Assembly: GCF_003313465.1 (NCBI RefSeq)
Contig: NZ_KZ845668.1
Span: 124,001 to 188,000 of the forward strand
Source of the DNA: Thermoflavimicrobium daqui
GTDB lineage: Bacteria > Bacillota > Bacilli > Thermoactinomycetales > Thermoactinomycetaceae
Direction: 5' to 3'
DNA: 64,000 nucleotides
Shown here: piece by piece, positions 16,831-62,903 of the stretch
Position numbering within the stretch: the stretch's first letter is position 1
Layout of the letters: each line of letters begins with the position of its first letter
Program-made: the position numbers and the translations under genes
The notes under the pieces: model-generated
Told to the model about the DNA's origin: nothing
Databases searched by the model: none
The model's input: only the letters and a program-made list of their open reading frames with translations

Positions 16831-17705
16831 CCTATCACCTGATCCTGATATAATAACTCTACTAAGCGCTCTAGCTCCCGTTCTGAATGATATACAATTT
16901 CAATTTTCCCTTTACGCCGACCTTTTTTTATCTTGACGGGTGTACTTAATAATTGTTGTAGCATATCTTCGTATCTACGAAGACTGGGGTCAAGCTCTCC
17001 TTTTGATTTTTGTTTTTCTTTTCTTACAGGTAATTGATTTATTTTTTGTACCCATTCTTCCAATTCACGAACACTTGCATTTTCTTGCTTAACTTTTTCT
17101 GCCAACTTTTTTTGTTGCTGGGCATCTTTAAGTCCTAATAATGCACGTGCATGCCCCATTGACAATGTTCCACGTGAAACATCTTCCTGTAATTCCTCTG
17201 GTAGCTGTAAAAGCCGAAGAAAGTTTGTCACATGCGACCGGCTTTTTCCGACACGTGTCGATACTTGTTCATGGGTTAATGAAAAATGTTGCATTAGTTT
17301 TTGATAAGCATAAGCAATCTCTATCGGGTTTAAATCTTCGCGTTGTAAATTTTCTACTAAACCAATTTCCAACATTTGATCATCATTTAACTCTTTAACT
17401 ACTACAGGTACTTTCGCTAAACCTGCCTTCTTAGCTGCGCGAAATCGACGTTCTCCAGCAATAATTTCATATCCTCTAATACTCTCTCTTACAATCAGTG
17501 GTTGAATAATCCCATGTAACTTAATAGAATCACTTAATTCTTCGATCAAATCATCTCCAAAATGCTTGCGTGGTTGATATGGATTTGGACGCAATTTATC
17601 TAACTCAACTTGCTTAACTACATCTTCTTCTGAAATTTCAACTTGCGGAAATAAAGCACCTAAACCTAAGCTTTTGACTCCATCTCCTAAGCCTTTACTA
17701 CTCAT
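16827..17705 (-). CDS. parB: Chromosome partition protein ParB (Spo0J)
   Basis: 292 residues. The N-terminal CTPase/clamp domain has LRPNPYQPRKHF and GERRFRAAKKA; the middle has the parS-reading helix-turn-helix (LTHEQVSTRVGKSRSHVTNFLRLL); the C-terminus dimerises. ParB slides from parS as a CTP-gated clamp and recruits SMC. Its ATG overlaps the end of parA by eight bases. A perfect parS site lies within the coding sequence, as in Bacillus subtilis. Confidence 0.96.
   Translation of the reverse strand: MSSKGLGDGVKSLGLGALFPQVEISEEDVVKQVELDKLRPNPYQPRKHFGDDLIEELSDSIKLHGIIQPLIVRESIRGYEIIAGERRFRAAKKAGLAKVPVVVKELNDDQMLEIGLVENLQREDLNPIEIAYAYQKLMQHFSLTHEQVSTRVGKSRSHVTNFLRLLQLPEELQEDVSRGTLSMGHARALLGLKDAQQQKKLAEKVKQENASVRELEEWVQKINQLPVRKEKQKSKGELDPSLRRYEDMLQQLLSTPVKIKKGRRKGKIEIVYHSERELERLVELLYQDQVIG
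17166..17181. promoter_or_regulatory. parS site inside parB
   Basis: TGTTCCACGTGAAACA is a perfect match to the Bacillus parS consensus TGTTNCACGTGAAACA. ParB nucleates here. Confidence 0.93.
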
Positions 17706-18414
17706 GACTAATCACTTCCTTAGCTAAGTCAATATAACACTCCGCACCACGTGAACGCGCATCATACATTAGGATCGGCTTTCCATGACTAGGAGCTTCG
17801 CTTAATCTGACATTTCGAGGAATCACTGTCGTATAAACTTTTGAACCGAAATATTTTTTTACTTCATCCATAACCTGAACAGATAGATTCGTTCGTTTGT
17901 CAAACATCGTTAGCAAAACACCTTCAATCCCTAAAAATTTATTGAGATGTTTTTGAACCAAGCGAATCGTATTTAACAATTGACCTAATCCTTCTAGCGC
18001 ATAAAACTCACATTGTATGGGAATCATGACTGTTTCAGCTGCTGTTAGAGCATTCAACGTAATAATACCTAAAGAAGGTGGACAATCAATAAAGATATAG
18101 TGGAAATCATTTTTGACATATGATAAAGCCCTTTTCAGCCTCAACTCACGGGAAATAGCTTGGGCTAATTCAATCTCAACACCAGCAAGCTTAATCGTTG
18201 CAGGAATGACCCACAAATTATTCACAGAGGTTGATATAATCACCTCATTGGGTATTGTCTCATTCATAAGTACATCATAAATGCACTTAGTTACATCTGG
18301 TTTATGGATTCCTAAACCACTTGTGGTATTTCCTTGCGGATCAATATCTACAATGAGTACTTTTCTCCCCAAGGAAGCTAAACTTGCTGCTAGGTTAATG
18401 GATGTTGTTGTTTT
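17698..18414 (-). CDS. parA: ParA (Soj), exon 2, residues 16-253
   Basis: This exon begins at the Walker A lysine codon (KTTTSINLAASL) and carries the rest of the ATPase: VDIDPQGN (A' motif), FIDCPPSLG (Walker B) and the C-terminal DNA-binding face. Joined to exon 1 it gives 253 residues, the length of Bacillus Soj, with the frame kept across the splice. Soj binds DNA as an ATP dimer and regulates DnaA as a monomer or dimer. An open frame with a TTG at 18372 exists but would lack the P-loop and has no ribosome-binding site. Confidence 0.95.
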   Translation of the reverse strand, partial: KTTTSINLAASLASLGRKVLIVDIDPQGNTTSGLGIHKPDVTKCIYDVLMNETIPNEVIISTSVNNLWVIPATIKLAGVEIELAQAISRELRLKRALSYVKNDFHYIFIDCPPSLGIITLNALTAAETVMIPIQCEFYALEGLGQLLNTIRLVQKHLNKFLGIEGVLLTMFDKRTNLSVQVMDEVKKYFGSKVYTTVIPRNVRLSEAPSHGKPILMYDARSRGAECYIDLAKEVISHE

Positions 18415-18546
18415 GTAGGGTAGAAAACTAGCGCCTTATATATGCATCCTAAAATAATTCGCTTATGGCCACTTATCAGATAATATCCTGATTCGACTTA
18501 AACAAATTCTACCGATCACATATACAGGTTTCTAGTATCCCCCTCC
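18415..18546 (-). ncRNA. Group II intron domain VI with a large insertion
   Basis: The basal stem forms from GGGGGATACTAG near the start and CTAGTTTTCTACCC at the 3' end, leaving an unpaired A at position -7 as likely branch point. About 90 nt of additional sequence sits at the tip; domain VI is usually about 40 nt in all. Confidence 0.65.
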
Positions 18547-18580
18547 GAACCGAACGTACACCTTTCGATGTATTCGGCTC
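18547..18580 (-). ncRNA. Group II intron domain V (catalytic hairpin)
   Basis: On the minus strand a 34-nt hairpin begins GAGCCG, has a GAAA tetraloop and ends CGGTTC. The AGC catalytic triad is present. Stems are complete, so the ribozyme core looks intact. Confidence 0.93.
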
Positions 18581-18604
18581 TCCAATTGTCGCTAGGTCAG
18601 GTGA

Positions 18605-19867
18605 TTACAATGGTTTCCGTGCTAATGGGTCTATTGATCTTCGTTTGATTTGTTGTGGAAAATAGATCATTATTTTTTCTTTTCCATTCACAGTATGATA
18701 CTTTGCTCCAATTGTTTGTTTTCCAGTAGCACTTACGATTAGACCATATTTTTTAAGAACTTTTTTCACAGAGCATTTTTCTTTATTCGCAATGGTTTTT
18801 AATAAACTTTGAAAGTGATAATAGCGAAATTTCCCCAGTTTTTTACTTACATCATCAGCATAACAATAATAGCTATACAGACCACTTATTTCAGTATGGT
18901 ATCGACGAATAATCTCTGATACAGGAAAATGAAGCCACGCTGAAAAGTGAATAGGCTGTCCATTTTTCATAAATGGATGAAGCTTAGATTGAATAATCTC
19001 ATGTGGAATTAAAAAAAGGAGCTTCCTATTTGTTGACTTAACAATATGATAGCCAAGAAATTCTACCTTCTCATCATGAATAAAGGCAGTTTTACTTGTA
19101 TTTAAATCAAGTGTCAACTCTAATTGCTGCTCTAAAAATTGCAACATCTGCTGTTTTATTTGGATAGCAGTCTTCTTGGTACCCGTTATCCAAACAAGAA
19201 ACTCATCGTGATAGCGAATATATTCCACTTTTTCCTGAATCATTATGTTTTGCACATAATGATTCATCCATTGATCAAACGGATGTAAATAAATATGAGC
19301 CAATAGGCGACTTAGCTCTCCTAACGAACCTTTATTTACAAAATCAGGTTTCAAATAGCCCGCCTGTAAAAAACGATGTACCAACTCAATAAACCGACCG
19401 TCTGCAATTTTTCTATATAACAGTTGTAGCAGGATAGGGTGAGAAATTTGAGCAAATAAGTTTTTGATTTTTCCTTTGATTACCCAATTAGATTCTGGTG
19501 CAAATTGATTTAGTTGATACAACACTTCTTCTATAGGAACTTCTTTTCGACAGCCTATAGCCGCTTCTATGAAGACGGGTTGGTATATAGCTTCAATGAG
19601 CAAACATAATACTTTTTGAACTAACTGGTCTGTATGACATCCTTTATTTTGTTCTAGGGAAAGAGGCTCTGGATAATACCGTTCATACCGCAATTGATCA
19701 ATAATCTCTTCTATCACTTCCATCTTCAATTTTCTTGAACAATCTTGCTGTGCAAGTTGATAAAAACTAGGTTGAAATAGATTGCGATATACTCGTTGAA
19801 ATATAAAATTTGCATTCTTACTAGATTTCTGACCTAGTAATGATAAGATTACTTTGGCCTTCTGCAT
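18605..19867 (-). CDS. Intron-encoded maturase with inactivated reverse-transcriptase domain
   Basis: A 420-residue protein in intron domain IV, preceded by GGAGGTATGCGAA. The C-terminal maturase (X) domain is clear: WLHFPVSEIIRRYHTEISGLYSYY at about 311-334. The RT region aligns throughout, but the catalytic YADD is YHDE (219-222), the first catalytic Asp region GDIKGCFD is GKIKNLFA (132-139), and QGGxxSP is replaced by SLGELSR (181-187). No HNH endonuclease follows. It should assist splicing but not make cDNA. The frame has no stop, which suggests selection for the maturase role. Confidence 0.9.
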   Translation of the reverse strand: MQKAKVILSLLGQKSSKNANFIFQRVYRNLFQPSFYQLAQQDCSRKLKMEVIEEIIDQLRYERYYPEPLSLEQNKGCHTDQLVQKVLCLLIEAIYQPVFIEAAIGCRKEVPIEEVLYQLNQFAPESNWVIKGKIKNLFAQISHPILLQLLYRKIADGRFIELVHRFLQAGYLKPDFVNKGSLGELSRLLAHIYLHPFDQWMNHYVQNIMIQEKVEYIRYHDEFLVWITGTKKTAIQIKQQMLQFLEQQLELTLDLNTSKTAFIHDEKVEFLGYHIVKSTNRKLLFLIPHEIIQSKLHPFMKNGQPIHFSAWLHFPVSEIIRRYHTEISGLYSYYCYADDVSKKLGKFRYYHFQSLLKTIANKEKCSVKKVLKKYGLIVSATGKQTIGAKYHTVNGKEKIMIYFPQQIKRRSIDPLARKPL

Positions 19868-20090
19868 TTCGCATACCTCCGTAATTTATCATTTCGACAA
19901 TCTGCCTTCCTTCGCCACGTGACTGGCTTTCCCAAGTCTCAAACTACTATGAAGGCTCCGCAGCCTTAGCGATAATGCCTTAGGCTGTCTCCGTTTAGCT
20001 CATGTAAATACAAAGGGAGTGACTTAGGTTCCCGTTCGCTTCTTTGACGTATCAACGATACGCTGGGAAGAGATAGAGAGTGTAAATAGT

Positions 20091-20096
20091 GTTGGC
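20091..20096 (-). promoter_or_regulatory. Candidate EBS1 of the group II intron
   Basis: GCCAAC on the minus strand, within domain I, is complementary over six bases to GTTGGC, the last six bases of parA exon 1. It lies in the loop of a possible hairpin (TGTAAAT / ATTTACA). Confidence 0.75.
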
Positions 20097-20374
20097 AAAC
20101 CCATTTACAATCCCTCCCGTGTACGTTTCGATTAGCTTTCGTACACCTTGGTAGTTTAAGCGAAGAAGCTGGGTTTAAAGCAGTTTAGCCTTGACCATAT
20201 CACTCCACTGGCCTTGCATATCAACTTATTAGCTAATTTCATAAGTCATATGCTTTACTGACATGCTATGGTCCCCTTTGATGTTTCCATCTCAGGTAAG
20301 TCAGTTGGCCATCAGGATCCCTCTCTAATCCTGAGCCCTCATTGGGCAATATTTACAGACCCTTACGGACGCAC

Positions 20375-20419
20375 GCCAACTCCACCTTTTTGATTAGCAA
20401 TCGCTATAATTTTCCCCAT
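20375..20419 (-). CDS. parA: ParA (Soj), exon 1, residues 1-15
   Basis: ATG and 14 further codons encode MGKIIAIANQKGGVG, the N-terminus of a deviant Walker A motif. AGAGAGGTGAATCAT precedes the ATG. The exon ends at the Gly codon GGC immediately before the intron GTGCG. The next codon, the essential Lys, starts exon 2. Confidence 0.95.
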
Positions 20420-20904
20420 ATGATTCACCTCTCTTAGTTCTCACATCTCTCTCACAAAGAACCCAATTAAGTGTGTAGCCTACTTTGGTTGGAAGCTTGA
20501 TATAGTCTTGTCCAGATGAGAATGGTGTCTAGGACAAATGATTTTCCTAAGGTAACTTAAATAACAAGGACCATCTTATAGCAATCTCAAAAAAATACGA
20601 TGTAAAATAGCAAACGAATTGAGTTCCTGTTTTAAGAGCAATTGATTACTACGATAGATAAGTAGTAGGGATCATCTTTACACGAAACAGGAAAAATGAT
20701 CCCATTTTATTCTTCTGTTTGTAGACAATATTGCCCTTTAAAAAATCCACTGCTTTCCATTTGAGAGCTCCGAGTTATAGATCTTCTGAGATTTACTGTT
20801 TGAAGCTCTTTGTTTCTTAAGTAAAAGTCGTCCTACAATAACTCCCACTTGCTAAGATCTTTACTTAATCTGAGCAATATGTCTATAGATGAATAGTCCG
20901 AATA

Positions 20905-21067
20905 GAGGTTGCCCTCTTAATCAGCCGTTCATCGCTTCCCCCCTCACTCCCATAGCCTTAATCGGTCCATAAAGTTGTTCCTTGGGGAAAAGTCGTTCCC
21001 ACACAAAAGTACTTCATGGCTTCATCTAGGAATGATCTAAGTTTTGGCTCGAATGATGCAACATGCT
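20905..21067 (-). repeat. Dispersed intergenic repeat, copy 2
   Basis: Reading the minus strand it has AGCATGTTGCATCATTCGA, then TTTTGTGTGGGAACGACTTTT, GGGAGTGAG, GCGATGAACGGCTGATTAAG and GAGGGCAACCTC, in the same order as copy 1. Confidence 0.7.
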
Positions 21068-21310
21068 CCTGATAGATCTAGTTGTCTCAAATGTACTCTT
21101 TCTCCAAGAAAGTAATTGATACAACAAGATCTACCAGCAGATAGTAGATTAATTTTACGATAACACAAAATTTTGCTCTTGCCATCTCCTAAGAAAATGA
21201 TTTTACGGAAACTTTCTATCCATCTAACATTTAGAGAGTTAAATATCTGTCTACCCAATAATACAGAAGTTCTCCTATACACGGTCATGTCACTAACTTC
21301 AAAAGTCCAA

Positions 21311-21473
21311 ATAACTTCTAGATAAAACCGCGAATCATTTTTATGTAGGATCAACCTTTCCCATAGAGAAAGAGCACTTCAAAAGTTATACTTAATTCGA
21401 AACTCTATGGACTAATCAAAGTTATGGGAGTGAGTAAGGAAACGATGAGTGATGGAGTTTAAGAGGGTAACCT
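21311..21473 (+). repeat. Dispersed intergenic repeat, copy 3
   Basis: It has CGCGAATCATTTTTATGTAGG, ATGGGAGTGAGTAAGGAAACG, GATGAGTGATGG and AAGAGGGTAACC. An extra internal stretch of about 40 bases separates the first and second halves relative to copy 1. Confidence 0.65.
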
Positions 21474-21602
21474 TTACTTCTATTAGAAGAGCTATTTTGT
21501 ATAACCCCTATATCTTAAACATATTGTAGTCCATCCCCCAATCATTGGCTTTCAAAAAAGTTGGAGTTAGTCCAACATAAAATAGCTTCCATAAGATCAT
21601 CC

Positions 21603-22421
21603 TTATTTAGGGATTCTTATAACTAACTCATAATAGGCATCATGCTCATTTTCATCAGTCACTACCTTCATTCCAGACTCTTGAATCATATGGATGGATT
21701 GCCGAATGGTATTAACCGCAATACGTAGATCTCTTGAAACAGCACGGCGTCGACCTCTTTTTTTATCTTTTGGTTTTTCATTTTCCAATATTTTGCGTAC
21801 TCTCTCCTCAGTTTGCTTTACATTTAAATCCTTATCCAGTATCTCCTGTAAAACAAGCAATTGTAACTCTTCTCTTTTCAAGGCTAACAAGGACCTTGCA
21901 TGTCTTTCTGTAATTTTTCGTTTAAGAAGTTCGTCATGAATCGCTTTGGGTAACTGTAGTAATCTTAACTTATTAGCAATAGTTGATTGTCCTTTACCCA
22001 ATCGTTGAGCTAGACTCTCTTGTGTGAGATGATGGATTTCAATTAATTTTTGATAAGCATACGCTTCTTCAATCGACGTTAAACCCTCACGTTGCAAGTT
22101 TTCAATGAGTGCTGCAGATGCAGCTTGACTATCTGTCATCTCTCTTACAATTGCAGGAATCGTGGACAACTCAAGCTTTTTGACTGCACGGAGCCTCCGT
22201 TCACCTGCGATCAATTCATATGTATTTTCCTTACGACGAACAACAATAGGTTGGATAATTCCGTGTGATTGAATGGTTTGACATAATTCATCAATCCGTT
22301 CATCGTTAAATAACGTACGCGGTTGATAAGGGCTTGGTTCAATTTCTTCAACTGGGATATGCCTTACCATCTCATGACCTTTTTCCCCTAAGCTAAACCA
22401 GCGTGTAATGGATTCTTTCAT
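21603..22421 (-). CDS. noc: Nucleoid occlusion protein Noc
   Basis: 272 residues, ParB-like: the clamp domain has [12 protein letters not shown] and [10 protein letters not shown], the helix-turn-helix has [24 protein letters not shown], and there is a C-terminal dimerisation part. The short N-terminal MKESITRWF amphipathic segment is the Noc membrane-binding helix and separates it from ParB. Noc blocks division over the nucleoid. ATG 22421 follows AGGAGGGGAG. Confidence 0.93.
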
Positions 22422-22552
22422 CTCATCTCCCCTCCTTTTCCCAGATAGCAAGAAACAACAATAATTAAGAGAATCAAGCTATATTACAGGTTGACTAAAG
22501 AATGACCCAACCAATATATTACATTCGCTACCTAATGCTAACTACCTTCTCA

Positions 22553-22568
22553 TGTTTCACGTGAAACA
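22553..22568. promoter_or_regulatory. parS site upstream of noc, copy a
   Basis: TGTTTCACGTGAAACA is a perfect 16-bp palindrome and matches the parS consensus. Confidence 0.95.
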
Positions 22569-22682
22569 TTTGAGAATACTAACAAGCCCGATTTTCCTTT
22601 TTAGCTAATTGAATTTCTCTATTTTTGAGTAGGAGTGAAACTGAATATCCATTATATAGCACATTTTGTGAATAAACTTCCA

Positions 22683-22698
22683 TGTTCCACGTGAAACA
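22683..22698. promoter_or_regulatory. parS site upstream of noc, copy b
   Basis: TGTTCCACGTGAAACA matches the parS consensus. It is 130 bp from copy a and about 450 bp from the actin-like gene. Confidence 0.95.
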
Positions 22699-33257: not shown

Positions 33258-34119
33258 ATTATTCACCTGGTGATCCTTAGCTTTCTCATGCATGTAAGCT
33301 AAGGTGAACCGGATCGGATAAAGATCCGACTGCGCCCCAGGTAACCTCCCTTCTATATCATGCGTTCATCAATACCCGACGACAATCTATAACATTATAC
33401 CGAGTTTAAAGTAAAAATGTCAAGAAACCCTTATGCTCTAAGGGATAAGCATGTGGATAAATTTTCAACCTGCTTTCGAAAATCCTTTATGTAATTAACC
33501 TTTTCATAAACATATACAAAACGTGTACTTTCTGTTGATACATCCAATTTTCCTTTTCTGGTTAAACGAAAGGTTTGATTTTTACACAACAGAAAGGAAA
33601 TCACAAATCTAGAAAAATGGTACGTGGCGGATTAAGAGGGGCACTTCAACTTAAAATAAAGAGACTAAAGTTATCCACATGTTTATAACCTGAGGATTCC
33701 CCATCTCCTTATGTGGATAACTTATCGTAATTATCCCCATCCACATGTGGATAATTTTTGCGCATCGGAAACTTTTTACACATCTTATCCAAAGATTATC
33801 CACTGGTTATCCACAGTATTCAGGGGTGTGGATAAAAAAAATCCACATCCTTGTGGATTGTGGATAACTTTCCATTTCTCATTGTAAATACTGGGATAAT
33901 TTGATATTCTATTGTTGCTTTATCAGTGGATAACTCACTTGTTCACAAACACTTATCCACAACTGTGGATAAGTGTTTGATTATTTATTCACATCCCTGT
34001 GGAAAATATTTTAGACAAGGTGTGGATGATGTGAATAAGTCATTTTTACTCTTTATTATCATCATTAAACCTTGTGGATAAATTATTTATATCATCTAGC
34101 TGAGAAAGGAGGAGAATGG
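33258..34119. other. Upstream half of oriC: DnaA-box region between rpmH and dnaA
   Basis: Ten perfect DnaA boxes are visible: TTATCCACA at 33671, 33807 and 33953, and TGTGGATAA at 33452, 33712, 33746, 33827, 33859, 33964 and 34073. Several one-mismatch copies lie among them. The rpmH side also has two hairpins (CCTTAGCTT/AAGCTAAGG near 33,273-33,303 and CGGATC/GATCCG near 33,313-33,331), likely in the rpmH leader. The dnaA promoter must lie here, so DnaA should repress its own gene. Confidence 0.92.
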
Positions 34120-35445: not shown

Positions 35446-35695
35446 ACAGGGGATTGTGTAAACTGTGGATAACTTGTACTCACTTATACACATGTTTTAC
35501 ACAGCCAATTCATATGGTATATCTGGGATAGACCCACTTATCCACAATATCCACAGCCCCTACTACTACTATTACTATTATTATTATTAAATATAAATAA
35601 AAAAGAGCACTCATTTTTCACTTTTTCATTTGTTTTTTTATCGCTTCACTTATCCACAAAAAATTGGGGATAGATTTAGCTTAAGGAGGATTTTC
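35446..35695. other. Downstream half of oriC: unwinding element between dnaA and dnaN
   Basis: DnaA boxes TGTGGATAA at 35464 and TTATCCACA at 35538 and 35650. The 35538 box is abutted by ATATCCACA (35547-35555), then GCCCC, then the trio array and a run of A and T. This order (boxes, GC-rich block, DnaA-trios, AT-rich element) is the Bacillus basal unwinding system. It also holds the dnaN leader and its AGGAGG site. Confidence 0.9.
35561..35590 (+). repeat. DnaA-trio array
   Basis: Ten consecutive TAC, TAT or TAA triplets follow the GCCCC block: three TAC, TAT, TAC, four TAT and a final TAA. DnaA-trios guide the DnaA filament onto single strands during melting. Confidence 0.85.
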
Positions 35696-43040: not shown

Positions 43041-43070
43041 TTATCCACAATTATCCACAGGTTATCCACA
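43041..43070 (+). other. Three phased DnaA boxes behind gyrA
   Basis: TTATCCACA occurs at 43041, 43051 and 43062, all on the same strand and 10-11 bp apart, that is one helical turn. They lie after the gyrA terminator and before guaB. Confidence 0.88.
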
Positions 43071-57078: not shown

Positions 57079-58356
57079 ATGCTTCATGCAAAAGTGTTAC
57101 GTGAGCAACTGGAAGTCGTGAAAAATAAATTAGCAACACGGGGAGGAGATCTCCAAGATCTTGATTCGTTTGTAGATTATGATCGAAAAAGACGGGAACT
57201 TATCCAAAAAACAGAAGATCTAAAAAATCGTCGCAATACAGTTTCCCGGGAAATAGCTCAAATGAAAAAAGCGAAACAAGATGCTGAAGCCAAGATTTTG
57301 GAGATGCGCCAAGTTGGGGAAGAGATTAAACAATTGGATGAAGAAATTGGGCAGCTTGAAGAGAAGATGAACGATATTTTACTTACCTTACCCAATCTAC
57401 CTCATGAAACAGTTCCGATTGGTGCTTCTGAGGAAGAAAACGTGGTTGTACGACATTGGGGAGAAGTGGCGGAAGCTGAATTTGCAGTGAAACCTCATTG
57501 GGAAGTAGGACTGGAATTAAATATCTTAGATTTTGAGCGAGCTGCCAAAGTATCTGGTTCACGTTATGTTTATTATCAAGGATTAGGTGCTCGCTTAGAA
57601 CGGGCTTTGATCAATTTTATGTTAAATCTCCATACAAGCGAACATGGTTATGAAGAGATGGTAACCCCGTTTATTGTCCAACAAGATTGTATGGTGGGTA
57701 CAGGACAACTCCCTAAGTTCGCAGAAGATGCCTATCGCCTGGAAGGAGAAGAATCTTATCTAATTCCGACAACAGAAGTACCACTGGTGAATTATTTCCG
57801 TGGAGAGATTTTAAAAGATGAAGATCTACCGAAATATGTAGCAGGCTATAGCCCGTGCTTTCGCTCGGAAGCTGGCTCGGCCGGTCGTGATACCCGTGGA
57901 GTAATCCGTTTACATCAATTTCATAAAGTTGAAATGGTAAAGTTAACGCATCCAGAGAAATCCTATGAAGAGCTGGAAAAATTAGTATCCAATGCTGAAA
58001 AAGTGTTACAACGACTAGAATTGCCCTATCGTGTGATTACACTATGCACAGGAGATCTTGGCTTTACGGCAACGAAGACGTATGACTTAGAAGTATGGTT
58101 GCCAAGCCAAGGAGCTTACCGAGAGATTTCTTCGTGTAGCAACTGTGAGGATTTCCAAGCGCGACGGGCTAATATTCGTTTCCGCCGTGATGCCAAATCG
58201 AAGCCGGAATTTGTTCATACCTTGAATGGATCTGGTCTCGCTGTCGATCGAACCATTGCAGCGATTCTGGAAAACTATCAACAAGCTGATGGGACTGTAC
58301 AAATTCCTACAGCATTACAACCTTATATGGGCGGCATCACACAGATTAGCAAGTGA
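57079..58356 (+). CDS. serS: Seryl-tRNA synthetase
   Basis: 425 residues: the N-terminal coiled-coil arm (about 30-100), then a class II core with [43 protein letters not shown] and [16 protein letters not shown] 57079 lies behind GAAGGGGG. An open frame back to 56995 runs through the T-box and is not translated. Confidence 0.97.
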
Positions 58357-58501: not shown

Positions 58502-58588
58502 GGAGAGGTGGTCGAGTGGTTTAAGGCAGCGGTCTTGAAAACCGCCGATGTCGTGAGGCATCCGTGGGTTCGAATCCCACCCTCTCCG
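58502..58588 (+). tRNA. tRNA-Ser (anticodon UGA)
   Basis: Acceptor GGAGAGG pairs with CCTCTCC, discriminator G, and CCA is encoded. The anticodon stem GCGGT/ACCGC encloses CTTGAAA, giving UGA. A long variable arm (GATGTCGTGAGGCATC) and GGGTTCGAATCCC T-arm fit serine. It follows serS. Confidence 0.97.
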
Positions 58589-58598
58589 CCAAAGGATA

Positions 58599-58640
58599 AA
58601 AAACGCACTTACCGTTATGAAGCGGTCAAGTGCGTTTTTT
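58599..58640 (+). terminator. Terminator after tRNA-Ser
   Basis: AAAACGCACTT pairs with AAGTGCGTTTT, followed by a T-run. Confidence 0.9.
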
Positions 58641-59202
58641 GTGTTGTCTATTCTTGTATTTATAATCATACTAAACTTCGACTTTATAGCTGTCTTTTTA
58701 TGATTATAACCTCAGTTTTCCACCCAATTGTATAATATAATCTATTCTATATAAAAAATAAATTTGCTAAGTCTTTGTGCCTTATACTACTTGGAGTTAC
58801 ATGCTGTTTTTTTACGATTAATTAAATGAATCCCGATGGGGCGGCTTTTATCCGGCATGGGGCTATACGTTTGATATAATGGACCAAGAGGATAGTCCTT
58901 AGAGTTTCTCTAGCCTGAAAATTGAATCACTGATATTGATATTACAATATGAAATTAGAATCTAAAAGAAGTTATTAACAACCTGTACATAAAATGTGAA
59001 TAACTTGTGAATAAAACTTTTTATGCTGAAAAACAAGTGATTATTCGTGATTTTGAAACCGATGAGAAGCTGTCATAGTGGATAGCCCTTTGTACTACCT
59101 TTGAAGAAATTTTTTATCCCATATTTTGTAGATACTCCAACAATAGTAAGAATTATTAGGTTATGATATAGTCCATATAAAAATAGTAGGTAGGTGATAA
59201 TA

Positions 59203-59346
59203 TTGCGAACCCTCTTTCATCCGAGCCCGAGCGAGATTAGACTAAGTGCGGTTCTTGCATCATTGAGTGATCCGATCCGATTACAAATCATTAAACAGCT
59301 TGATGGATGCAATTTTGCAAGCCAAAGAACCTTTTTAATGAGATAG
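59203..59346 (+). pseudogene. Truncated ArsR-type transcriptional regulator
   Basis: A TTG frame of 47 residues has FHPSPSEIRLSAVLASLSDP and IRLQIIKQL, the N-terminal helices of an ArsR winged-helix repressor, then loses homology and stops. The recognition helix and wing are missing. TAGGTGATAA precedes the start. Confidence 0.7.
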
Positions 59347-59396
59347 GTTCTTTTGAAGATGAAATTGCGAAAAGGAAAGTCAATGTGAATAGGGCT

Positions 59397-59847
59397 TGTG
59401 GATAACTTGTGAATAATTTTATTTATATATGATAAGATTATGTAAGAAAAGCCAGAGAAATTAGGCGAGTAGAACTCTATTCAAAGCAATTGATATTCTG
59501 TGTATAAATTGTGGATAACTTGTGAATAGACATTTTATCTACATTCTATGCCAGATCTTTTCTTATAGAGATTGTCGACTAATTTAACTAATAATTATTT
59601 TTGAGCTCATTCCATTAAGGATGCAGAGAGATCACATGTAATAATAATCCACTTTAAAAGTAGATAGTTCAATCGTTTCTACTTTACTTATATATAAAAT
59701 TTATTTTATATACAGATGATCCAATCATATTGATTTTATAGCTTAATAGGAGAAATTGATTTTGTGGATAAATTATAAACAATTTGTGTATAAATTGTGG
59801 ATAAGTAGAATTAGTTATCCACAGGTAGTAACTATTTTTGTGGATAA
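59397..59847. other. Distal DnaA-box cluster
   Basis: Six perfect boxes: TGTGGATAA at 59397, 59510, 59763, 59796 and 59839, and TTATCCACA at 59815. Near-matches such as TGTGAATAA and TGTGTATAA lie among them. The cluster is about 24 kb from the dnaA-dnaN element. Confidence 0.85.
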
Positions 59848-59918
59848 CTTGTGTATAATTGCTTATTGATCATGAGATGGTCTTATTTATCTGCCTTTTA
59901 TTAATAGATAGAAATAAT

Positions 59919-59954
59919 GGTCACTCCAAACTGAGATAAGAGTGGCTTTTTTTT
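59919..59954 (+). terminator. Orphan terminator-like hairpin
   Basis: GGTCACTC pairs with GAGTGGCT (with wobbles), followed by eight T. No intact gene precedes it; it could belong to the decayed ArsR gene. Confidence 0.6.
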
Positions 59955-60119
59955 ATGTTTCCATGAGAAAATAAAAAGTACATAATCGTTTTTTTATTAT
60001 ATAAGCTATACCTTACTAGGTTCAAATATAGGATAGACCTTGAAAAATAAAGAATGCTTGGTTTAAAGAAGTGTATCATAAATGGATCGTTATTCAATGA
60101 AAGATAGAAGGTGATGAAA

Positions 60120-61165
60120 ATGAAAAGAAAGAAATTTGCTAAACGATATCAAATTATAGATGAAATAGCAAGTGGAGGGATGGCAACAGTTTATAAGGCA
60201 CACGATACATTACTAGATCGTTATGTAGCCATTAAGATACTAGATCGTGACTTGATCAAAGATAAAGTGATTGTCAAACGTTTTGAGCGGGAAGCTAAAG
60301 CGATTGCGCAGCTTTCTCATTCGAATATTATTCATGTTTATGATTTTGGCTATGAGAAAGACCACTATTTTATTGTGATGGAATTAATCGAAGGACCCAA
60401 TCTAAAAAAGCTATTAGCAAATCAAGGGGCGTTTTCTATTCATGAGGTAGTACAAATTGGCTGTGAAATCCCAGTGAATTAAAGCCATATATTCCTAAAG
60501 AAATGGATCGGGTTATATTAAAAGCACTTGCTAAAAATCCTTCAGATCGTTATCAAACCGCTGAAGAGATGAAAAAAGCCTTACAACAGATAGGAAGAAA
60601 GTATCCTCTGGCAACTCCTCAAACTTTTAGAACAAAAAAATCTGCAGTCCATCTTCATAAGAAATTAAATGATCGTTATCAAACGATTAAAGGGATCGGG
60701 ACTAGTGGATTAGCTGATATATATAAAGGTTATGATACTTCTCTGGAAAGGTACGTAACGTTAAAAATTGATAAGGATGGACGATATAAATTAACTGATT
60801 TTTCAATCTTATGGATTGATTCAACTCTTTCTCCTACTTTAAGTCAAGATGAATTAGAAGCAGCTTTCTATTGTTCTCCAGAATATGCGAAGGGGGAGAA
60901 AGTGAGCTTTCAGTCCGATTTGTATTCGTTAGGCATTGTTTTATTCCGACTAGTTACAGGTCATCTTCCCTTTGAAGGAAATGATGTAGATACGATTTTT
61001 TCTAAACATATCAATGAATCACCCCCTCATCCAAAGGAATTTAACCCTAATATCCCTGATATACTTTGTCAAGTCATTTTAAAATCGTTGGGAAAAAATC
61101 CAGATGATCGATATCAATCACCGACACAAATGAAATCATTCCTAAGCCAGTCATCCCTTTTTTGA
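60120..61165 (+). pseudogene. Remnants of two Ser/Thr protein kinase genes
   Basis: The first part (to 60,482) encodes an intact N-lobe (IASGGMATVYKA, VAIK, EREAKAI) that stops where the catalytic loop should start. After a frameshift the end of a kinase C-lobe follows (PKEMDRVILKALAKNPSDRYQ). A second kinase then starts (LNDRYQTIKGIGTSGLADIYKG) but jumps from its VTLKI lysine straight to KLTDFS, losing the catalytic HRD loop, and ends normally (DLYSLGIVLFRLVTGHLPF). Neither can phosphorylate. Both resemble the intact kinase next door. Confidence 0.82.
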
Positions 61166-61229: not shown

Positions 61230-62903
61230 GTGAGCAGCTTGGAAGGCCAAAAACTAAATGATCGATATCTGATTATCAAACAGATTGGTAAAGGAGGTAT
61301 GGGGAAGGTTTATCAAGCGAAAGATGAACGACTGGGGCGGAATGTAGCTATTAAAGTAATGTATGACAACTTAAAAGAAGATGAGGAGTTTGTTCGGCGT
61401 TTTATTCAGGAAGCCAAGGCATTGGCTAAGATCTCCCATCCACATGTCATACAAGTGTATAACGTAGATAGTGCGGATAAGACATCTTATATAGTATTGG
61501 AATTAATGAAAGGACCTACATTAAGGCAAAAACTAGACGAACAGGGAAAAATCCATTATAAAGAAACAATTTCCATTATAAGTAAAGTACTAAAAGGGCT
61601 AAGCAAGGCACATCAGTTTGGAATTATTCATCGTGATATTAAGCCTCATAATATTATGTTAGGAATGGATGGTCGTTGGAAGTTAATGGATTTAGGGGCT
61701 TCTAAATGGCTAACTTCTTTTTCAGACTTAACCAATTCGGTTGGCATTATAGGGACAGTACAATATTTCTCACCTGAACAAGCGCAAGGGAAACAAGTAG
61801 GAATTCCCTCAGACTTATATTCAGTTGGAATCGTTCTATATGAAATGTTAACAGGTCAGCTGCCTTTTCAGGCTAATGAAAAAATAGCAATTGCTCTAAA
61901 GCATGTGACTGAGCCTGTTCCAGATCCACAGGAATTTAACCCTGATTTACCAGATGAACTATGTCGAGTTTTATTAAAACTTTTAGAAAAAGATCCTTCC
62001 AAGCGATATCGATCTGGTGAAGAGCTAATGGTGTATTTAGAAAAATCGGTACTGAAAAGAAAAAAAGATGTACGTAAGGAAGAGATAAAGAAGTCTATTC
62101 AGATTAAGCAGAAAGAGGAGTTAAATAAAGCAAATCCACCATTTATTCCAGTGTGGAAGAGAAAGGGAATCTGGATAGGAGGAATCTTTAGTATCTTTTT
62201 ATTAGCTACAGGTTATTTTATTTTGACTACAACGAGTGAAGCCGAATCGGCACTAAATCAAGAGCAAAAAAGTATCCAAAATATACTTGAGAGGTCATTG
62301 CGTAAAATGGAACAGATGAAGGGAATCCAACTTGAAATTGATGAACAACGTCAGTTAGGGAATTCCCTAGAAAAAACACAACAAGCTAATGTTGTATTAC
62401 AAGGAAACCAATTGTTTGTGATGTTTGCGAGATCTGAAATCGCTGAACATATGGAAGGCTCGACATGCTATCGTGGTAAAATAAATGATAGTGAGTGGTT
62501 AGCTACAAAAGTCTGTATGTCTTCGATTTATAGAAACTATCACCCCAAAGAATTACTATTAAAAAGTAAACCATATATCCGAAAAATGTTAAAGAAAGAA
62601 CAAGATGACACTTATATTATCCAAATGAAATTAAATGAGGAAGATCATTTTTATCCCCTTATTGATAAATATTGGGAAATGAGGGAAGTAAAACCGATGA
62701 TGGTGGAGAAATGTTCTCTTCATATCAATATCGAAATTGATAAAAGTGATTTACAAGTTAAAGAAGTAGATATGAACTTAAATGTGAAACATAAAAATAA
62801 AAATTGGCTATCGAATTGGTTTGGTTTATCCCGTTTTTCTTCTATCCAAGCAAAGACTTATACGAAGGTAGTCGGGATTGGTTCCATTCGATCAAGCAAT
62901 TAA
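61230..62903 (+). CDS. Membrane Ser/Thr protein kinase with novel extracellular domain
   Basis: 557 residues. Kinase domain (about 10-275): GKGGMGKVYQA, VAIKV, catalytic HRDIKPHN, DLG in place of DFG, and SPEQAQG. After a Lys/Glu-rich linker there is one membrane segment (about 311-330), then about 225 extracellular residues. These lack PASTA repeats, unlike PrkC; the layout looks like a lipid- or peptide-binding lipoprotein-like fold, but I cannot name it. The start is likely the TTG at 61239 or the frame start at 61230, with GTAGGTGAG near. Confidence 0.85.
   Translation: MSSLEGQKLNDRYLIIKQIGKGGMGKVYQAKDERLGRNVAIKVMYDNLKEDEEFVRRFIQEAKALAKISHPHVIQVYNVDSADKTSYIVLELMKGPTLRQKLDEQGKIHYKETISIISKVLKGLSKAHQFGIIHRDIKPHNIMLGMDGRWKLMDLGASKWLTSFSDLTNSVGIIGTVQYFSPEQAQGKQVGIPSDLYSVGIVLYEMLTGQLPFQANEKIAIALKHVTEPVPDPQEFNPDLPDELCRVLLKLLEKDPSKRYRSGEELMVYLEKSVLKRKKDVRKEEIKKSIQIKQKEELNKANPPFIPVWKRKGIWIGGIFSIFLLATGYFILTTTSEAESALNQEQKSIQNILERSLRKMEQMKGIQLEIDEQRQLGNSLEKTQQANVVLQGNQLFVMFARSEIAEHMEGSTCYRGKINDSEWLATKVCMSSIYRNYHPKELLLKSKPYIRKMLKKEQDDTYIIQMKLNEEDHFYPLIDKYWEMREVKPMMVEKCSLHINIEIDKSDLQVKEVDMNLNVKHKNKNWLSNWFGLSRFSSIQAKTYTKVVGIGSIRSSN

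Follow-up and report, generated by a model that had tools for sequence, protein, structure and literature searches.

A conserved, ordered cluster of DnaA boxes 24 kb from oriC in Thermoflavimicrobium daqui, predicted to be a Bacillus subtilis-type DnaA-box cluster

What is the function of a non-coding stretch that lies 24 kb from the replication origin of the thermophile Thermoflavimicrobium daqui and carries DnaA boxes at a density close to that of the origin? For this locus, located in a window of 64,000 nucleotides (the whole stretch of DNA that was analysed), the initial annotation listed six perfect boxes in 451 bp, accompanied by several one-mismatch boxes, and proposed either a site that restrains initiation, similar to DnaA-box clusters in Bacillus subtilis or to datA and DARS in Escherichia coli, or a duplicated origin fragment. 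The present analysis indicates that this is a real, conserved and ordered cluster, most likely a further example of a type of site described before in B. subtilis. No paper on DnaA boxes in Thermoactinomyces or on the replication origin of Thermoflavimicrobium was found in the literature.

Composition, architecture and genomic context of the cluster

All six perfect TTATCCACA boxes are present within 59397-59847 (59397, 59510, 59763, 59796 and 59839 on the minus strand, 59815 on the plus strand), and boxes with one mismatch are found in and around the cluster at 58972, 58984, 59384, 59521, 59535, 59706 and 59773. With the consensus TTATNCACA, as used for Bacillus (PMC4447404), the cluster grows by about 400 bp on its left side and by 11 bp on its right side and includes 12 boxes in 58995-59858 (864 bp; Table 1). 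In 5,000 first-order Markov sequences modelled on the surrounding AT-rich stretch 58641-60110, the mean number of such boxes is 0.11 and the maximum is 3, compared to the 12 observed. Pattern searches, on which all genome-wide statements on boxes rest, detect 79 perfect boxes in the genome versus 42 matches to the reversed pattern used as control, most of the surplus being located on the oriC-bearing contig. The distance of about 24 kb given at first is accurate (24.0 kb separate the first perfect box from the end of dnaA), and the density of perfect boxes, originally equated with that of the origin, is near it but slightly lower (6 in 451 bp versus 10 in 630 bp at 33452-34081).

The arrangement of the boxes is regular. 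Each TTATNCACA box in the cluster is on the minus strand except for the one at 59815, and five same-strand tandem pairs form exact 11-bp repeats (58995/59006, 59397/59408, 59499/59510, 59785/59796 and 59839/59850). The box at 59763 is located two 11-bp steps before that at 59785, the one-mismatch boxes at 58984 and 59521 stretch two of the arrays to three boxes each, and the opposed box is spaced 19 bp from 59796 on its left and 24 bp from 59839 on its right. With approximately one helical turn per box, the sites would face the same side of the DNA, an arrangement that would suit cooperative binding.

Table 1. Features of the window discussed in the text
Feature	Coordinates	Strand	Details
oriC part 1, boxes upstream of dnaA	33452..34081		10 perfect boxes in 630 bp
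dnaA	34075-35445		TIGR00362
oriC part 2, between dnaA and dnaN	35464..35658		TTATCCACA-ATATCCACA-GCCCC, then DnaA-trio-like triplets
Three DnaA boxes in tandem, upstream of guaB	43041..43070	+	guaB by TIGR01302
serS, seryl-tRNA synthetase	57079..58356	+	NCBIfam TIGR00414, 580 bits; syntenic left anchor of the cluster
tRNA-Ser (TGA)	58502..58591	+	ARAGORN, Rfam
Box array A	58984..59014	-	one-mismatch box 58984, TTATTCACA at 58995 and 59006; 11-bp repeat; outside the coordinates of the initial annotation
Gene remnant (short truncated reading frame of helix-turn-helix type) separating arrays A and B	59203..59346	+	translation LRTLFHPSPSEIRLSAVLASLSDPIRLQIIKQLDGC...
Box array B	59397..59416	-	TTATCCACA 59397, TTATTCACA 59408; 11-bp repeat
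Box array C	59499..59529	-	TTATACACA 59499, TTATCCACA 59510, one-mismatch CTATTCACA 59521; 11-bp repeats
Box array D	59763..59804	-	boxes 59763, 59785, 59796; steps of 22 and 11 bp
Single opposed box	59815..59823	+	TTATCCACA; 19 bp on from the last box of array D
Box array E	59839..59858	-	TTATCCACA 59839, TTATACACA 59850; 11-bp repeat
Broken Ser/Thr protein kinase gene	60111..61165	+	pieces 60111-60482 and 60503-61165; partial matches to Pfam PF00069; mapped to orthologue

The gene order in T. daqui is serS, tRNA-Ser, the cluster, a broken kinase gene and a second, intact kinase gene at 61230. The serS orthologues in the two sister genomes are 82% and 76% identical, and an inverted repeat with a T run follows the tRNA gene (58598-58640). 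The description of the stretch as gene-poor is borne out: there is no intact gene between the end of tRNA-Ser (58591) and 60111, and the short truncated frame in between, which we take to be an ArsR-like remnant, gives no match in an NCBIfam search. The cluster thus occupies a non-coding region outside oriC. The reading frame of the broken kinase, which begins 250 bp after the end of the cluster, has suffered an internal loss and a frame change relative to the intact 565-aa orthologue from T. dichotomicum. Two further candidates were considered and rejected. An Rfam search for structured RNA detects just the T-box of serS and the tRNA, and none of the known RNA families falls within the cluster; parS-like sites, which would mark a chromosome-segregation site, occur at 17166, 22553 and 22683 (three sites to the left of oriC, within 17166-22698), and none is near the cluster.

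The comparison with the true origin bears on the proposal of a duplicated origin fragment. In oriC, adjacent boxes and the GCCCC spacer are followed by a DnaA-trio-like run of nine consecutive triplets (35561-35587), whereas no run of at least four TA[CT] triplets (DnaA-trio) is detected in the distal cluster of any of the three Thermoflavimicrobium species compared below, so that the succession of boxes, GC-rich spacer and DnaA-trio unwinding element characteristic of an origin is missing from the cluster. The cluster region is AT-rich (70%), its box density approaches that of oriC, and its 45-bp stretch 59784-59827 resembles the dnaA-dnaN boxes of one of these species, G022 (87%), as could be expected of a duplicated or degenerate replication origin; this similarity, however, amounts to boxes in similar order, and a search of the T. 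daqui genome itself yields nothing beyond box-sized matches (best off-site match of 41 bp, E 0.1). Because there is no DnaA-trio in the cluster but a textbook one in the true oriC, and no similarity beyond the boxes, a duplicated working origin is rejected and the proposed origin fragment finds no support; descent from an origin in any form appears most improbable.

Conservation in Thermoflavimicrobium and the neighboring genes

The genus comparison includes three genomes, T. daqui (G000, the source of the window), its nearest named relative T. dichotomicum (G021), and G022, and the cluster is found at the same locus in all three. It is placed after serS-tRNA-Ser in T. daqui and in G022, where it is 18.4 kb from dnaA and is followed by tRNA-Arg and other genes. 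In T. dichotomicum, it lies 48.8 kb from dnaA, the intact kinase orthologue follows directly at a distance of about 200 bp, and serS-tRNA-Ser is separated from the cluster by 32 kb of other genes with a GC content that is higher in part. Judging from their first residues, genes in this 32-kb stretch (C38, about 455-487 kb) presumably include those of a hydantoinase, a xanthine-dehydrogenase-type enzyme and a terminal oxidase.

In the right half of the cluster, 42 of the 45 box columns but only 5 of the 29 spacer columns are identical in all three genomes (Fisher P 1.5e-11), a contrast that is inflated given that the alignment was led by the boxes themselves, whereas the locus itself was set by synteny. 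Array C has a matching block in both sister genomes, and the opposed box is kept at 18-19 bp in all three species. We count the retention of the boxes and the divergence of the spacers as support for purifying selection, which probably acts on the boxes. The same pattern speaks against a neutral accident in decaying intergenic sequence, an explanation for which the gene remnants around the cluster could be cited but which is hardly credible.

Genus-wide pattern searches detect DnaA-box pairs in T. dichotomicum and G022 only at oriC, upstream of guaB and in the cluster, with 0 matches to the reversed control. The T. daqui genome contains two further small box sites. One (C6:211001-211056, or L006:3001-3056) is made up of four boxes at a distance of 52 kb from dnaA and precedes a sensor-kinase-like gene followed by dnaX; neither sister genome has a perfect-box counterpart of it. 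The other (C7:53919-53960, or L008:2920-2961), on another contig, includes three DnaA boxes after a lysS-like gene. The boxes upstream of guaB, the IMP dehydrogenase gene, suggest a possible link between GTP synthesis and DnaA. Like the cluster, they are tandem DnaA boxes outside oriC, found at a distance of 7.6-10 kb from dnaA in almost every genome of the family; unlike the cluster, they precede an intact gene, so that a transcriptional role is likelier there.

A transcriptional role can be considered for the cluster as well, with DnaA acting here mainly as a transcription factor and the cluster serving as an operator for a flanking promoter or for the kinase genes that follow it, as in the case of sda or ywlC in B. 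subtilis. Several strong DnaA sites in B. subtilis indeed control transcription (PMC4447404), the kinase frame is close by in both T. daqui and T. dichotomicum, and the intact second kinase gene could still be a target. However, the boxes are kept although the adjacent kinase gene is broken in T. daqui, and no kinase genes are found beside the cluster in the syntenic stretch of G022, which contains tRNA-Arg and another gene at this position; for this reason, the kinase does not explain the conservation, and its promoter is weakened as the cause. There is, then, no conserved intact gene next to the cluster, an observation that concerns the adjacent gene rather than more distant targets. Promoter-like matches, moreover, are no commoner than in shuffled sequences, and the operator explanation seems doubtful.

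Predicted role and relationship to known DnaA-box sites

Taken together, these observations are best compatible with the cluster being an oriC-proximal DnaA-box cluster (DBC) of the B. subtilis kind, predicted to bind DnaA and to restrain initiation, a reading to which we assign a probability of roughly three in four. Of the initial proposals, it is the Bacillus-type cluster that is well supported, the site being non-coding and oriC-proximal and having kept both its position and its architecture in three species. In B. subtilis, in the account of Okumura et al. 2012 given by the reviews PMC5295017 and PMC13220808, removal of six DBCs outside oriC causes early initiation, and restoring one DBC at various places partly rescues the timing. 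The strong DnaA sites of this bacterium contain 4-12 boxes, are mostly intergenic and bind DnaA cooperatively (PMC4447404).

By analogy, cooperative binding of DnaA to the tandem boxes with their 11-bp phasing would be expected, with one protomer per approximately one helical turn on the same face, and at least ten DnaA molecules would be joined in the resulting nucleoprotein complex. At 24 kb from oriC, the cluster would be copied soon after initiation; this early copying would double its DnaA-binding capacity and, by titration, lower the amount of free DnaA, so that the next initiation at oriC would be delayed. The shared features include non-coding clusters of consensus boxes outside oriC, few per genome, against a common background: both organisms belong to Bacillota, YabA is present in the T. 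daqui genome as it is in B. subtilis, and no Hda-family protein above the cut-off is found in T. daqui, as in B. subtilis. The differences are the locus, after serS-tRNA-Ser and before a kinase gene, with none of the top B. subtilis DnaA sites listed in PMC4447404 located at serS, and the prevalence of 11-bp same-strand tandem arrays. In B. subtilis, the DBCs are redundant and have a modest effect, which becomes strong only when all six clusters are removed, and according to one review no cluster with a significant regulatory role has been identified in this bacterium (PMC5295017). Conserved DnaA binding could also serve other ends, for example, transcription or nucleoid organisation.

The cluster shows more order than a simple sponge for DnaA requires, the opposed box being flanked by tandem pairs in a conserved geometry, and one could envisage a datA- or DARS-like site, where an ordered complex alters the nucleotide state of DnaA beyond sequestering it. 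Like datA of E. coli, the cluster is a group of boxes outside oriC near a tRNA gene; it lies downstream of such a gene in two of the three genomes, as datA does according to PMC10950094, but this link is broken in T. dichotomicum. Furthermore, datA depends on IHF and promotes DnaA-ATP hydrolysis, and B. subtilis lacks IHF, Hda and the datA and DARS loci (PMC13220808). With DARS1 and DARS2, which act by nucleotide exchange, the cluster shares, at a general level of comparison, the character of a small non-coding DnaA-box site. Given also that T. daqui has no Hda above the family cut-off, the analogy with datA and DARS is weakened, and such a mechanism is quite improbable here.

DnaA-box pairs outside oriC across the family

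Throughout the family, DnaA-box pairs are found outside oriC, whereas the control pattern gives no match in any genome (among the matches listed); the family table covers same-strand pairs on the dnaA contig only. In 20 of the 21 genomes tabulated, the guaB region contains a pair at 7.6-10 kb from dnaA; its position upstream of guaB was checked in the three Thermoflavimicrobium genomes and is assumed for the others. Several genera have a pair 28-44 kb from dnaA on the opposite side, whereas Thermoflavimicrobium and Thermoactinomyces, which are not sisters in the tree built from SerS and DnaA, have one 17-49 kb from dnaA on the serS side. The arrays themselves differ, with abutting boxes in Thermoactinomyces and 11-bp arrays in Thermoflavimicrobium. 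In Thermoactinomyces vulgaris and T. mirandus (L125, L127), two copies of the boxes, with 9- and 12-bp steps, lie about 500 bp apart after serS; one of the copies in T. vulgaris is degenerate, and the architecture differs from that of the Thermoflavimicrobium cluster while the distance from oriC is similar. A distant member of the family, G010, has about 27 tandem 64-bp units between dnaA and dnaN (C1, L145:9950-11700), with 74 TTATNCACA boxes, 72 of them perfect, next to a TACTACTACTAC trio run, an extraordinarily large array for an origin.

These distributions hint, as a lead rather than a result, that a cluster at such a distance may recur in the family while its place changes. In a more specific scenario, which we consider rather unlikely, the order itself would matter: arrays with 11-bp phasing around a single opposed box would carry a defined DnaA complex, and selection would keep one site approximately 17-50 kb from oriC while the locus and the chromosome arm change, with the serS side used in Thermoflavimicrobium and Thermoactinomyces and the opposite side in several genera. 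If this is true, the distance, and hence the time of copying, would be the selected property.

The DBC interpretation matters beyond this locus, given that most work on DnaA-box clusters outside oriC comes from B. subtilis, a bacterium in which the effects of six clusters mask one another. The sparse clusters of Thermoflavimicrobium make the idea of restraint easier to test: in T. dichotomicum and G022, there is a single cluster besides the guaB site, so that a single deletion could test the restraint of initiation, and the natural distances of 18, 24 and 49 kb between the cluster and dnaA provide a test of whether the timing of duplication matters.
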